This document shows positions 3,804 through 33,573 of a stretch of 36,731 nucleotides of DNA, in pieces. Position numbers and translations under genes: made by a program. The notes below the pieces were generated by a model that was given only the letters and a program-made list of their open reading frames with translations, was not told the origin of the DNA and made no database searches. Each line of letters opens with the position of its first letter. Position 1 is the stretch's first letter. The stretch is taken from the NCBI GenBank assembly GCA_013823365.1, contig PNMC01000010.1, forward strand, positions 1 through 36,731, read 5' to 3'. This DNA comes from Parvibaculum sp. (GTDB lineage Bacteria; Pseudomonadota; Alphaproteobacteria; Parvibaculales; Parvibaculaceae).

Positions 3804-4298
3804 ATGTCCGCAAAAGACCCGAATGAAGCCGCACAGAACGCCCGCAGCAATCTCATTCGCATGTCCCTCGTCGTCATGGCCATGACAGGCCTGATCGCGT
3901 TTATGATCGGCACAGGACGCGTCCAGCTATATGATGAACCCATCGAACTGACGGTGCAGGTCACGCAGCCCAGAAGCTGGACCGAAGCAGGGCCGCTCAT
4001 CCTCGCAGTCAAGACCACGCTCGCCAACAATACCGGCGAAGCCATGCCGCTCGAAATCGGCTCGCAATGCAACATCTTCCGCTGGTTCCTGACGGACCGG
4101 GACCAGAATTTCGTCCAGTCGCAACGCGGCGACGAAGCCTGCCTCGACGTGCCGATGCGGGGCGAACTCGAAGGCAAGCATTCCATCTCGGGCGAATACA
4201 CGCTCGAACTCGACCCCGCCCGCGTGAAGCCCGGCGATTACATTCTCTTCATGAATTATTGGGGCCATGAGAGGCGCGAGCCGATCACCATCAGGTGA
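3804..4298 (+). CDS. Membrane-anchored protein with a possible BsuPI-like beta-sandwich domain
   Basis: Single N-terminal TM helix followed by 'ILAVKTTLANNTGEAMPLEIGSQCNIFRWFLTDRDQNFV...LELDPARVKPGDY'; start codon next to the dctM stop. Confidence 0.65.
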   Translation: MSAKDPNEAAQNARSNLIRMSLVVMAMTGLIAFMIGTGRVQLYDEPIELTVQVTQPRSWTEAGPLILAVKTTLANNTGEAMPLEIGSQCNIFRWFLTDRDQNFVQSQRGDEACLDVPMRGELEGKHSISGEYTLELDPARVKPGDYILFMNYWGHERREPITIR

Positions 4299-4304
4299 TC
4301 CGGC

Positions 4305-6551
4305 TCAGGGCGCCCCGAAGCCGCCGCCGAACTTGTGCCCCACGGGGAAGCCCTTGGGCGGCAGGCGGCCTGCCTGCGCGCGCTGCCCGAGCCATTCCTT
4401 CAGCGCATCGAATGTCCGCGCGCGGTCGGAGCGGTCATAGGCGATGAGCCCCTGTTTCAGCGTGAAGGTCTTGATGTCGCCGAGGCCGCCATCCTTGTAG
4501 CGCTGCAGGCGCACGCCCTTGCCGCGCGTCATCTCGTTCACTTCCTTGAGCGGGAAAACGACGAGCTTGCGGTTCTCGCCGATCACGGCCACATGATCGC
4601 CCTGCACCACGGCGCAGGCGACCGCTTCATCCGTACCCGAGACGTTCAATATCTGCTTGCCGGCGCGGCGCATCGCGACGACCTCGTCCTCCGGCACGAT
4701 GAAGCCATTGCCTTCATGCGAGGCGATGATGAGCCTCCGCCCCGGCTGGTGCACGAAAAGCGCCACGATGTCGCGGCTCTCGTCGAGGTCGATCATCAGG
4801 CGTACCGGCTCGCCATGCCCGCGCCCGCCCGGCAGCTTCGCTGCGTCGAGCGTGTAGAAGCGGCCATCCGTCGCGAAGAGAAGGATTTTGTCCGTCGTCT
4901 CCGCATGAAGCGTGAAGCGCGGGCCATCGCCCTCCTTGAACTTGATATCGGCGTCGGCGGCGAGATGCCCCTTCATCGAGCGGATCCAGCCCTTCTTCGA
5001 GCAGACGACGGTGATCGGCTCCTTTTCGACCATCGCCTCGACCGGCACATATTCGACTTTCGGCGCATCGGAGAACGTCGTTCGCCGCGCGCCGAGCTTC
5101 GTCTTCGGGCCGAATGTGTTGCGCACCTCCTTGATCTCTTCGGACACGCGCTCCCACTGCTTCGCATCGGACTTCACCAGCGCCTTGAGGTTCTTCTGCT
5201 CGGCGGTGAGGGTCTTGTGCTCGCCCCTGATCTCCATTTCCTCAAGCTTGCGCAAGCTCCGCAGGCGCATGTTGAGAATTGCTTCCGCCTGATTGTCGGT
5301 CAGCTTGAAGCGCTTCATGAGCGCGGGCTTCGGCTCGTCCTCCTCGCGGATGATGCGGATCACCTCGTCGAGATTGAGATAGGCCTTCAGATAGCCTTCG
5401 AGCACTTCGAGCCGCTTCTCGATCTTGTCGAGGCGGAAGTTGGAACGGCGGACGAGCACGTCCTTGCGATGCTCGAGCCAGGCCCGGAGCGCCTCCCTGA
5501 GACTCATCACGCCCGGCACCTGCCCCGCCGAAAGCACGTTCAAATTCAGCGGAAAGCGGCTCTCGAGCTCCGTCGCCCGGAAGAGCGACTCCATCAGATG
5601 TTCGGGCTCGACCGTTCGGGACTTCGGCACCAGTACGAGGCGGATTTCCTCCGCGCTCTCGTCGCGCACATCTTCCAGCAGGGGCAGCTTCTTCGCCTGC
5701 AGGAGTTCGGCGATCTTCTCGATCAGCTTCGACTTCTGAACCTGGTAGGGAATTTCCGTGACGACGATCTGCCAGAGCCCGCGGGGCAGCTCCTCCTGCT
5801 CCCAGCGCGCCCGCACGCGGAAACCGCCGCGCCCCGTTTCATAGGCCTCGATAATCGCCTCGCGCGGCTCGATCACGATGCCGCCGGTCGGGAAATCGGG
5901 CCCCTGCACGAAGCTCACAAGCTTTTCCGTCCGCGCATTCGGATATTTGATGAGATGGAGCGCCGCGTCGCAAAGCTCCGCCGCATTATGCGGCGGAATG
6001 CTCGTCGCCATGCCGACCGCGATGCCGGAGGCGCCATTGGCGAGAAGCTGCGGGAAGGCCCCCGGCAGCACCATGGGCTCCTTGTCCTCGCCATCGTAAG
6101 TCTCGCGGAAATCGACCGTGTCCTCGTCGAGCCCGTCCAGCAGCAGCGCTGCGACGGCGGTCAGTCGCGCTTCCGTGTAGCGCATGGCGGCCGCGTTATC
6201 GCCGTCCACATTGCCGAAATTGCCCTGCCCGTCGACCAGCGGAAAGCGCACGGAAAAATCCTGCGCGAGACGCACCAGTGCGTCATAGACCGACTGGTCG
6301 CCATGCGGGTGATAGCGGCCGATCACGTCGCCGACGACGCGGGCCGACTTCTTGAAACCCTGCCCCGGCTCCAGCCTGAGCTGCCGCATCGCAAAGAGTA
6401 CACGCCGGTGCACCGGCTTCAGCCCGTCGCGCACATCCGGCAGCGCCCGATGCATGATGGTCGAGAGCGCATAGGCGAGATAGCGCGTCTCCAGCGCCTC
6501 GCGCAGATTGATCTCGTGTTCGGGCTCGGGCGGCGGTGCGACTTTGGTCAT
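4305..6551 (-). CDS. parC: DNA topoisomerase IV subunit A
   Basis: '[33 protein letters not shown]', '[34 protein letters not shown]' with catalytic Tyr context '[12 protein letters not shown]'. Confidence 0.97.
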
Positions 6552-29364: not shown

Positions 29365-30483
29365 GTGCCCGCCGTGCAGGAGGACCCGCAGGATTTGCCG
29401 TCCGCAAGGCGGGAAGCAACCCCGTCCGAGGCGCCGGCTGCGCTCTACTGGCTTCTCGGCCTCGTGGCCGCCGCTCTCGCCCTGGTGGCGATCGTGCTGG
29501 GGCGGGAGTTCCTCGCTCCCCTCGCCGTGGCCATCCTGCTTTTCAGCCTCATCACCGCACTGATCGACCTCGCGAGCCATTTCCAAGTCGGCTCGCTTTC
29601 CATGCCGAACTGGCTTGCCACGCTGATCGTATCCCTGCTCTCGGCGGCGGCGCTGATGGCCTTGTTCAGCCTCCTCTCGGCGCAGATCAACGACGCGGTA
29701 GCGACGGCCTCGGACTATGCGGACCGCTCGGAGGAGGCCGTCTCCGCCCTCTTCGCCCTGCTCGGCGAGGACGCCGCCTCCGCCGCGCTGGCCGCGTTCC
29801 GCGACATCGACCTCGGCGCCTCGCTCCGCGCGCTGGCGGGATCGGCGGGAGCGCTGTTGATCTCGACCGTGCTCGTGATCCTCTATATCGGCTTCCTCTT
29901 CGCCGAGCGGCCGCACTTCTCCGCCAAGTTCGAGAGGCTCTTTCCCGATCCGCGCCGCGCCCGGCGCCTGCACCATATTCTGGGAGCGATCGGGCGCAGC
30001 GTCCGGCACTATGTTCTGGTCAAGACGGCGGTGAGCCTCGCCACCGCAGGCGTCGTCTATATCATCCTGCTGCTGCTCGGCATCGATTTCGCCGAGCCCA
30101 TCGCGACGCTTACCTTCTTCTTCAACTTCATTCCGAATATCGGCTCGATCATTGCCTCCCTGCTGCCCGCCATGGTGGCACTGGTGCAGTTCGGCGACTG
30201 GCCGATGGCGCTCATCGTGCTCTTCGGCATTGGCGCCATCCAGTTCTCCATCGGCAACATCATCGAGCCCATGCTGATGGGCCGCGCGCTGCACCTGTCG
30301 TCGCTCGCGATCATCCTGTCGCTGACATTCTGGGGCGCAGTCTGGGGTGTGGTCGGCCTCTTTCTCGCTGTGCCGATCATGGTCATGGTCATGATCGTCT
30401 GCGCCCATGTGCCGGGCCTCAAGCCGGTGGCGATCCTCCTGTCGCGCGATGGCGACCTGAACGATGAGGCGCAGGGCGGTTGA
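29365..30483 (+). CDS. AI-2E family transporter (PerM-like), probable GTG start
   Basis: 'LLLLGIDFAEPIATLTFFFNFIPNIGSIIASLLPAMVAL', 'GNIIEPMLMGRALHLSSLAIILSLTFWGAVWGVVGLFLAVPI'. Confidence 0.92.
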   Translation: MPAVQEDPQDLPSARREATPSEAPAALYWLLGLVAAALALVAIVLGREFLAPLAVAILLFSLITALIDLASHFQVGSLSMPNWLATLIVSLLSAAALMALFSLLSAQINDAVATASDYADRSEEAVSALFALLGEDAASAALAAFRDIDLGASLRALAGSAGALLISTVLVILYIGFLFAERPHFSAKFERLFPDPRRARRLHHILGAIGRSVRHYVLVKTAVSLATAGVVYIILLLLGIDFAEPIATLTFFFNFIPNIGSIIASLLPAMVALVQFGDWPMALIVLFGIGAIQFSIGNIIEPMLMGRALHLSSLAIILSLTFWGAVWGVVGLFLAVPIMVMVMIVCAHVPGLKPVAILLSRDGDLNDEAQGG

Positions 30484-30492
30484 CGGGAATGG

Positions 30493-30972
30493 TCACTCCT
30501 CTTCCTCCGGGGCGGGGGCGATCAACCGGTCGTGCAGCTTCCGGATGCTCTCATTGAGCTGATGTAGTTCCTCCTCGGACATTCCGATCCGCGCGGCCAG
30601 ATTGGCGCTGACGCGGCCGGCCACATTGCGCAGATCCCTGCCCTTGTCCAGGAGAGCGATCATGACCTGACGCTCATCCTCCGGATTGCGGATGCGGGTA
30701 AGATAGCCGCCGGCTTCGAGCCGCTTCAGCAGCGGGGTCATGGTGCTGGTCTCAAGCCGGAGCTGGGCGGCGAGTTCGCCGACAGGCCGGTTGTCCCGTT
30801 CCCAGAGCAGGTTGAGCACCAGATACTGCGCATAGGTGATGCCAAGCTCGTCCAGCACGACTTTATGAATGCGCTGGATTTCGAGGTTCGTTCCATAAAT
30901 CCAGAGGCAGATATGGTCGTCGAGCGGCGGCGGAAGGTCCGGCTTCGGATTGCGCTTGGTCATCTCTCTCAC
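30493..30972 (-). CDS. MarR family regulator, OhrR-like
   Basis: 'YAQYLVLNLLWERDNRPVGELAAQLRLETSTMTPLLKRLEAGGYLTRIRNPEDERQVMIALLDKG'; N-terminal Cys in 'HICLWIYGTN'. Confidence 0.9.
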   Translation of the reverse strand: MREMTKRNPKPDLPPPLDDHICLWIYGTNLEIQRIHKVVLDELGITYAQYLVLNLLWERDNRPVGELAAQLRLETSTMTPLLKRLEAGGYLTRIRNPEDERQVMIALLDKGRDLRNVAGRVSANLAARIGMSEEELHQLNESIRKLHDRLIAPAPEEEE

Positions 30973-31000
30973 TCCTTACCTGTAACGTCCGGCGATTTTT

Positions 31001-31093
31001 TATCGCAAAAATATCTATCGCGATAAAAATAACTGTTGACGAGAAAAGTGCAACCCATTATCTATTCCTTATCGCGATAACAATTATCGTGAC
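31001..31093. promoter_or_regulatory. Palindromic operator array: perfect TATCGCGATA at 31016-31025 and 31070-31079, each with a second TATCG half-site 15 nt away
   Basis: Direct reading of the marR/hydrolase divergent intergenic region. Confidence 0.7.
31036..31064 (+). promoter_or_regulatory. Putative promoter TTGACG-17 nt-TATCTA for the hydrolase gene
   Basis: Motif and spacing; lies between the two palindromes. Confidence 0.6.
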
Positions 31094-31113
31094 ATTATTT
31101 AAGGAGCTCAAAA

Positions 31114-32049
31114 ATGTTGAAATCCCTTCTTTCCGCGGTCGCCTTGATCTCCCTCGCGGCCTGCGAAGCCCCTGCAACCAATTCCGCCTCCCAAACCTCA
31201 GCTCAGGGAAATACGCACATGTCCACGATCACCACCAAGGACGGCAACCAGCTCTATTACAAGGACTGGGGCCCGAAAGACGCCCAGCCCATCGTGTTCC
31301 ATCATGGCTGGCCGCTGACCGCCGACGACTGGGACAACCAGATGCTGTTCTTCCTCTCGGAAGGCTACCGTGTCGTCGCTTTCGATCGCCGCGGCCAAGG
31401 CCGCTCGACCCAGACGGATATCGGCCATGACATGGACACCTTTGCGTCCGATACGGCGGACCTCGTCGCCGCGCTCGACCTGAAGAACACGGTACAGATC
31501 GGCCACTCCACCGGCGGCGGCGTCGTCGCCCGCTATGTGGCCACGGCCGAGCCGGGCCGCGTGTCCAAGGCGGTGCTGATCGGCGCGATCACACCGATCC
31601 TCGGCAAGACGGAAGCGAACCCCACCGGCATCCCGCTGGACGTGTTCGACGGCTTCCGCAAGGCGCTGATCGACAACCGGTCGCAGTACTATCTCGATCT
31701 GCCCTCCGGCCCGTTCTACGGTTTCAATCGTCCGGGTGCTGAAGTCAGCCAAGGGCTGATCCAGAACTGGTGGCGTCAGGGCATGGCCGGCAGTGCGAAG
31801 GCACAGCTCGATACGATCACGGCCTTCTCGGAGACGGACTTCACCGAAGACCTGAAGGCGATCAACGTGCCGGTCCTTGTGTTGCACGGTGAAGACGACC
31901 AGATCGTGCCCGTCGACGAAACGGCGCGCCGGGCAGTTGCCCTGCTCCCGAAGGGCAGCCTGAAGACCTATCCCGGTCTGCCCCATGGATTGTTCGCCAC
32001 CCACCCGGATGTGATCAACGCCGACCTCCTGGCATTCATCCGGAACTGA
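31114..32049 (+). CDS. Alpha/beta hydrolase (cofactor-free haloperoxidase-like) with N-terminal lipoprotein-type signal
   Basis: SD AAGGAG; 'MLKSLLSAVALISLAAC' lipobox; 'FHHGWPLTADDWDNQMLFFLSEGYRVVAFDRRGQGRS', 'GHSTGGG', 'PGLPHGLFATH'. Confidence 0.88.
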   Translation: MLKSLLSAVALISLAACEAPATNSASQTSAQGNTHMSTITTKDGNQLYYKDWGPKDAQPIVFHHGWPLTADDWDNQMLFFLSEGYRVVAFDRRGQGRSTQTDIGHDMDTFASDTADLVAALDLKNTVQIGHSTGGGVVARYVATAEPGRVSKAVLIGAITPILGKTEANPTGIPLDVFDGFRKALIDNRSQYYLDLPSGPFYGFNRPGAEVSQGLIQNWWRQGMAGSAKAQLDTITAFSETDFTEDLKAINVPVLVLHGEDDQIVPVDETARRAVALLPKGSLKTYPGLPHGLFATHPDVINADLLAFIRN

Positions 32050-32073
32050 GGCGAGACATCAACCGCACTGAAG

Positions 32074-32102
32074 CCGGGCCGCAGCAATACGGCCCGGTTT
32101 TT
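32074..32102 (+). terminator. Rho-independent terminator downstream of the hydrolase gene
   Basis: CCGGGCCG-CAGCAATA-CGGCCCGG-TTTTT. Confidence 0.85.
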
Positions 32103-32116
32103 CCACGACCGGGAAT

Positions 32117-32548: not shown

Positions 32549-32707
32549 GATCCTTTCCTCCCATACGTGAGTTCGTGACGTCTCCTCCCGAGAATAACGA
32601 TCGGCAAGCCCGAGGGATGCGCCCGGCACCTCGTCATGTTCTTGCATTCATCCGCTATGAAGAATATGCGTTAGTCATGACGATGTTCGTATCCACATTC
32701 TTCCCGC

Positions 32708-32757
32708 TGATCTGAACGACTGAAAGTCGTGCCGGTGCCCTTGCACCGTTCAGATCA
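32708..32757. other. Candidate three-way-junction structured element upstream of the PhyH gene
   Basis: Outer stem TGATCTGAAC/GTTCAGATCA enclosing GACT-GAA-AGTC and GGTGC-CCTT-GCACC hairpins, all perfectly paired. Confidence 0.6.
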
Positions 32758-32802
32758 AAAACGGCCTGCCGACAGCGGCGGTCGCACGGAGAATGTTTTG
32801 TC

Positions 32803-33573
32803 ATGCCCAAATCCGAGCATGCCGGCCTGACTTCGGATCAGGTCCAGACCTTCATCGACGATGGCTTCGTCAAAATCGAAAATGCTTTCAGTGCAGACCT
32901 TGCAAAAACATGCAGGGACGAATTGTGGAGCGATCTCGGTCTGTCGCCAGACGAACCGGAAAACTGGGCGCAGCCTGTGGTCCGGGTCGGGTTCAAGTCG
33001 TCGCCTCCCTTTGTCGAAGCGGCCAACACACCGGAACTGCACAAGGCCTACGATCAGCTCGTTGGCGAAGCCCGCTGGCTTCCTCCCCAGGGCCTTGGAA
33101 CCTTTCCGGTCCGCTTTCCCTCGGCAAAGTCCCCCGGCGACGATGGCTGGCACGTGGACATGAGCTTCGGCACCGACAATCCGGATTTCATGGAATGGCG
33201 GGCCAACGCGAAAAGCCGTGGGCGTGCCCTGCTGATGCTGTTCCTGTTTTCGGATGTCGGTTCCGACGATGCGCCAACCAGAATACGAAAAGGATCACAT
33301 TCGATCATCGCCCGCGAGTTGCTGCCTTATGGCGAGGCGGGCGCAACGCTCCGGCAGCTCTCCGCCGATGGCTTTGCCTCCACGGATGGATGCGATGTGG
33401 CGCTGGCGACAGGCGCGGCGGGCACGGTCTATCTGTGCCATCCCTTCATCGTCCATGCCGCGCAGCCTCACCGGGGAAAACACCCCCGCTTCATGGCGCA
33501 ACCGCCATTGCTGCCGCGCGGTGAGTCCGACCCGGCTTACTGGCGTAAGCCAGCCGAAGCTCGAAGAGCGTAG
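32803..33573 (+). CDS. Phytanoyl-CoA dioxygenase (PhyH) family protein
   Basis: 'QVQTFIDDGFVKIENAFSADLAKTCRDELW', 'DDGWHVDMSF' (HxD), distal 'HPFIVHAAQPHRGKHPRFMAQPP'. Confidence 0.88.
   Translation: MPKSEHAGLTSDQVQTFIDDGFVKIENAFSADLAKTCRDELWSDLGLSPDEPENWAQPVVRVGFKSSPPFVEAANTPELHKAYDQLVGEARWLPPQGLGTFPVRFPSAKSPGDDGWHVDMSFGTDNPDFMEWRANAKSRGRALLMLFLFSDVGSDDAPTRIRKGSHSIIARELLPYGEAGATLRQLSADGFASTDGCDVALATGAAGTVYLCHPFIVHAAQPHRGKHPRFMAQPPLLPRGESDPAYWRKPAEARRA

Follow-up and report, generated by a model that had tools for sequence, protein, structure and literature searches.

Upstream of a gene for a PhyH-family dioxygenase in a Parvibaculum sp. genome lies a 50-nt stretch that can be drawn as a perfect three-way junction, which raises the question of whether this element regulates the gene and in what way. 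The window, that is, the whole stretch of DNA analysed, comprises 36,731 nt, and the promoter-like sequence, the leader and the dioxygenase gene lie on its forward strand. The junction is only the middle part of a longer conserved regulatory leader. The key part of this leader is a short open reading frame (leader ORF), and the element is very probably a leader-peptide translational attenuator of PhyH, of the erm/ToiL type.

Structure of the PhyH leader

The junction occupies positions 32708-32757. Its outer stem P1 (32708-32715/32750-32757, TGATCTGA/TCAGATCA) encloses the inner stems P2 (32716-32721/32725-32730, ACGACT/AGTCGT) and P3 (32733-32738/32743-32748, CGGTGC/GCACCG). The junction region (66 nt) folded at -26 kcal/mol with a z-score of -4.98, a value equalled by none of 200 dinucleotide shuffles. 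The three-way junction is a real fold, and its position, perfect pairing and stems were as the original prediction had them. The view that it lacks a T tract and is not a terminator was also upheld, as no terminator-like site (stem plus T tract) was found between 32000 and 33700. Among the Rfam covariance models run on the window and the region, only a tRNA in the window reached its gathering score. The junction element is present as a single copy in the Parvibaculum source assembly, and a DNA search for it in 61 relatives returned only chance matches of 15-30 nt. This comparison with close relatives was blank because the same-genus genomes do not have the PhyH gene.

The junction is nested within a longer-range helix, P0, that extends to the PhyH Shine-Dalgarno sequence. 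The anti-Shine-Dalgarno strand of P0, ACATTCTTC (32695-32703), is located in the codons S-T-F-F-P of the leader ORF and pairs with the Shine-Dalgarno region GGAGAATGT (32788-32796), which folding and covariation place within P0. The 5' arm of P1 starts in the last codons of the same ORF and ends in its stop codon. Between the junction and the Shine-Dalgarno sequence, covariation supports a further hairpin, P4 (32762-32784). When six leaders were folded individually, the minimum-energy structure formed P0 in the window and in four of five relatives, enclosing the junction and a further hairpin. In the remaining leader (L089), the junction was retained and closed by a related but different pairing. 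In ermC, the Shine-Dalgarno sequence is hidden by a downstream hairpin and not by codons of the ORF.

With the PhyH protein as query, 45 loci were obtained from 84,980 species genomes, and plasmids contributed another 12. The arrangement of leader, junction and P0 was conserved in 31 PhyH orthologs. In the covariance-model alignment of 33 sequences, 91.3% of the cells were paired, and double-sided changes were observed in 25 of 37 pairs, which none of 500 shuffles reached. Slid controls paired at 32-52%, against 91% for the real register. The sequence-only MAFFT alignment gave the same picture, with 88.9% of cells paired and 17 doubly changed pairs. By helix, the paired cells amounted to 94% in P0, 89% in P1, 93% in P2 and 91% in P3, with compensatory changes in each, while in P4 all nine pairs had changed on both sides. 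For P0, the compensations were CACAGTCT/AGACTGTG in L052 and L068 and CACGTTCT/AGAACGTG in L069; the second-site changes that prove this helix are few, comprising these three loci and single cases. Covariation and computed accessibility together indicate that the P0-P4 structure hides the downstream Shine-Dalgarno sequence. The earlier idea of a cis-regulatory element in the 5'-UTR is thus supported, since the element lies 5' of almost all close PhyH orthologs and all of its helices covary across them.

The leader ORF and its occurrence

The leader ORF of the window, ATGACGATGTTCGTATCCACATTCTTCCCGCTGATCTGA (32677-32715), is an unannotated reading frame of 12 codons that encodes MTMFVSTFFPLI and terminates inside the 5' arm of the junction. 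The consensus peptide of the family is MMF[MT]STFFPLI, followed by a stop codon. The ORF was found in frame in all training loci except L059, and it precedes PhyH in Rhizobiales, Rhodobacterales, Sphingomonadales, Caulobacterales and others. Column identity was 92% in the leader ORF, 83% in the stems of the three-way junction, and 51% in its loops and unpaired positions. The pN/pS ratio was 0.31, and deviations at codon positions 1, 2 and 3 numbered 17, 20 and 43. Permutation tests of this third-position bias gave P values of 0.03, 0.09 and 0.02, depending on which of three counting schemes was used. Together with the conserved frame, these figures indicate that the leader ORF is under coding selection. 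In L089, the stop codon has changed from TGA to TAA with its function retained. The leaders of L057, L058 and L087 end in FFPRF, with RF replacing LI, and matching changes are seen in the 3' arm of P1.

In the exceptional locus L059 (Brucella cytisi, 3882-4777), a one-base deletion cuts the leader to MMFMSTFFP, and PhyH contains a frameshifted-looking stretch; this looks like a decaying copy. Divergent leaders of the form M[MT]F[MT]IF[HN]RAAAF[PL]LV were observed before PhyH in L072, L073, L078 and L080 (Erythrobacteraceae and Sphingomonas gilva), three of which (L073, L078 and L080) differ from each other synonymously only. In these four loci, pairing is possible between TTCCATCG and CGATGGAAAG at the Shine-Dalgarno sequence; they are not counted as shown cases because the modelled sequestration is weak. 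They may be a second branch of this device in which the peptide is different.

A promoter-like sequence (-35 TTGCAT, 17-nt spacer, -10 TATGCG) is present at 32642-32670, where it had been predicted, and its -10 element ends 6 nt before the start codon of the leader ORF. The same arrangement was observed in other loci. Across 28 loci, the mean best score for a TTGnnn/-10 pair before the leader ORF was 7.5, compared with 5.75 in shuffles (z 10.9), and the distance from the end of the -10 to the AUG was 6-8 nt in 23 of the 28. Given this spacing, the leader ORF is probably leaderless, with transcription starting at or next to its AUG. The rnTrpL/peTrpL leader, compared further below, is leaderless.

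Additional copies were sought with the covariance model in four partly overlapping searches of whole genomes (385, 40, 399 and 300), which made no use of PhyH. Outside the training set, there were 28 strong matches, located in 26 additional genomes, as a second copy in G851, and on a Microvirga plasmid. The Microvirga copy, found by blastn, is a truncated one with an IS21 element behind it. The leader ORF is present in all 28, and each of them is followed, 70-103 nt downstream, by a PhyH relative (60-80% identical). Because the model embodies the leader sequence as well as the structure, the further copies were chosen partly on both, and the presence of the leader in all matches is partly due to selection; the PhyH gene behind every strong match is not a product of this selection. 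Realignment of 24 further copies gave 92.8% of cells paired and nine doubly changed pairs (0 of 500 shuffles), with one-sided changes only in P0. The only other match was a weak one (E 0.008) in G022, of the same genus as the window, which precedes an alpha/beta hydrolase gene without a leader ORF and was rejected as chance. The pattern STFFPLI-stop occurred in viral contigs as six AT-rich coincidences, all without the junction element.

Proposed control of PhyH translation

In the mechanism that we propose, transcription would begin at the AUG of the leaderless 12-codon ORF or immediately beside it. After normal translation and termination of the leader, the mRNA would refold, and the S-T-F-F-P codons would pair with the PhyH Shine-Dalgarno sequence. 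Helix P0, seen by covariation to close over P1-P3 and P4, would then keep PhyH off. A ribosome held at any point between about codon 3 and the stop codon would cover the anti-Shine-Dalgarno strand and the 5' arm of P1, and with P0 blocked the Shine-Dalgarno sequence would be free and PhyH would be translated. The peptide MMF[MT]STFFPLI would probably act as a nascent-chain sensor, stalling on a compound tied to the task of the enzyme. As inducer, a natural product that targets the ribosome and is detoxified by the dioxygenase would be the most likely class, with a small metabolite as the other option.

The switching step was modelled by folding with a blocked ribosome footprint. The mean unpaired probability of the Shine-Dalgarno sequence, calculated over the modelled loci with 11-codon leaders, rose from about 0.08 in the free leader to about 0.5 with the P-site at codon 3, and the raised accessibility persisted to the stop codon. 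In the window, the corresponding values were 0.01 and about 0.5. The modelled opening was weak in L042, L057, L058 and L087, and in L046 the Shine-Dalgarno sequence was already open. In these calculations, the position of the ribosome on the leader changes Shine-Dalgarno accessibility, and since the modelled ribosome frees this sequence, a held ribosome is predicted to turn PhyH on.

Systems of this kind are known, although neither an earlier description of the leader nor this member, its peptide or its target was found in Rfam or the literature searched. The same architecture is proven by experiment for the ToiL uORF of E. coli topAI-yjhQP, which itself pairs with a downstream Shine-Dalgarno sequence that stalling within the uORF frees (PMC12121999). 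ToiL differs in having its own Shine-Dalgarno sequence, an unrelated peptide and a toxin-antitoxin operon as its target, and it is not reported there to have a three-way junction. Attenuation by a held leader ribosome has been reported for ermC (PMC10219788). Attenuators of the ermC/ErmCL type likewise consist of a short hydrophobic leader followed by hairpins that hide the Shine-Dalgarno sequence of a mobile solitary gene; there is no sequence relation, and Erm methylates rRNA whereas the gene here encodes a dioxygenase. The very short hydrophobic leader MsrDL (MYLIFM), six residues long, can arrest at its stop codon (PMC10314930), but it controls transcription of msrD by a terminator, and none was seen here. 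In Rhizobiales, rnTrpL/peTrpL is also an alphaproteobacterial leader-peptide attenuator (PMC7298713), although it is a Trp-codon transcription attenuator with an unrelated peptide and target.

Peptide-specific stalling is the part of the proposal on which plain translational coupling would differ. In that reading, leader translation as such would set PhyH expression and report leaderless initiation or general translation stress. A ribosome at any position from codon 3 onward frees the Shine-Dalgarno sequence in the model, the leader appears to be leaderless, and ToiL senses several drugs (PMC12121999), all of which would suit such coupling. We consider it unlikely nonetheless, because the amino acids are conserved beyond the needs of pairing (F3 lies outside P0, and pN/pS is low) and the divergent leaders still end in hydrophobic residues, for example AFPLV or FFQVV before the stop.

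A metabolite riboswitch, in which the junction would serve as a small-molecule aptamer controlling access to the PhyH Shine-Dalgarno sequence, had been suggested in the original prediction. It would be in keeping with a structured, covarying junction in a 5'-UTR and a sequestered Shine-Dalgarno sequence. However, the variability of the unpaired junction bases argues against it: conservation within the leader is lowest at the junction and loop nucleotides, the opposite of aptamer cores, while the most conserved part is an ORF, and no Rfam match was obtained. A riboswitch is thus very improbable. We give equally little credence to an amino-acid starvation attenuator of the trp/his type acting through rare or repeated codons. 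A short leader ORF does stand before a possible amino-acid hydroxylase (GriE-like fold), but the leader contains no run of one amino acid, there is no terminator, and control appears to be exerted at the Shine-Dalgarno sequence rather than at transcription termination.

A DNA-level element, either a cruciform operator or a REP/BIME-type mobile palindrome standing by chance before PhyH, would account for the perfect palindromic stems but is already contradicted: an operator leaves the conserved reading frame, the Shine-Dalgarno pairing and its long-range covariation unexplained, and a single copy per genome argues against a REP element, for which many scattered copies would be expected, with every strong model match elsewhere lying before PhyH. 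In sum, the cis-regulatory leader of the original interpretation stands, its riboswitch is not supported, and its operator and mobile unit are contradicted, while the leader ORF and P0 had been overlooked.

A conserved leader peptide is a direct clue to the signal to which the gene behind it responds, and the majority of those known report on antibiotics or key metabolites within the ribosome. Phenicols and oxazolidinones cause the strongest arrest when the penultimate residue of the nascent chain is Ala, and less with Ser or Thr (PMC8987054). Phenicol-type stalling would be compatible with the conserved S-T, and with the A or T that precedes F in divergent leaders; the fit is not specific and is a lead only. 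Through this leader, a dioxygenase that is widespread among soil and marine Proteobacteria becomes accessible to experiment: compounds screened with a leader reporter should identify the inducer and, through it, probably the substrate. Both the candidate arrest peptide and the apparently leaderless uORF extend a list that is still short.

The dioxygenase gene and its spread

The regulated gene (32803-33573) encodes a PhyH-family Fe(II)/2-oxoglutarate dioxygenase of 256 aa, matching Pfam PF05721 with 25.9 bits (cut-off 22). The HxD...H...R metal and 2-oxoglutarate residues H117, D119, H218 and R229 are invariant in the family. NCBIfam provided no name for the enzyme. The best PDB folds for its AlphaFold model (pLDDT 85) were GriE, KanJ, proline hydroxylase H11, SnoK and HygX, at 14-20% identity and TM scores of about 0.5-0.6, so the relation is at the fold level only. 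PhyH shares the fold and the metal-binding residues of GriE, KanJ and HygX, although these are actinomycete biosynthetic enzymes to which it is only 14-20% identical.

The gene stands alone and occurs sporadically. Its neighbours are not conserved outside close relatives, and it is found on several conjugative plasmids. No PhyH relative was found in phage records. The gene has spread horizontally: its tree mixes host families, with Sphingomonas beside Stappia at 94% DNA identity, for example. Solitary, sporadic occurrence with a host-mixing tree is also the pattern of inducible resistance genes. It is possible, and we put this forward tentatively, that the cassette serves in antibiotic defence, with the dioxygenase inactivating a ribosome-targeting product and being induced by a new 11-residue arrest peptide (MMFxSTFFPLI), encoded by a leaderless ORF, that would sense this product in the ribosome. 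On two Paracoccus plasmids (L086 and L095), a distance of about 3.7 kb separates PhyH from an aac(3) gene for an aminoglycoside acetyltransferase, a proximity that is probably coincidental.

PhyH relatives are also present on Streptomyces and Pseudonocardia plasmids. These homologs (42-51% identity) were without such a leader. Several of them adjoin an AraC regulator; on the Streptomyces plasmids L090, L091 and L094, for instance, a PhyH homolog of about 50% identity without a leader stands beside one, which suggests different control in actinomycetes.

In the window, the cassette adjoins a tRNA gene and is missing from the syntenic place in the same-genus genome G002. The window PhyH has lost the usual family C-terminus, PALPPSPVQIAIRQACGLT, and its 3' end has the appearance of a recombination junction formed at a short microhomology, GACC/CGGC; the protein may therefore be altered in function; alternatively, the 3' end may reflect a mis-assembly of the draft genome. 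The last ~14 PhyH codons (33532-33573) match the sequence upstream of the same tRNA in G002. Genes for a MarR regulator and an alpha/beta hydrolase (30465-32116) are also missing from the syntenic locus of G002, and the stretch before the tRNA is therefore a variable region.
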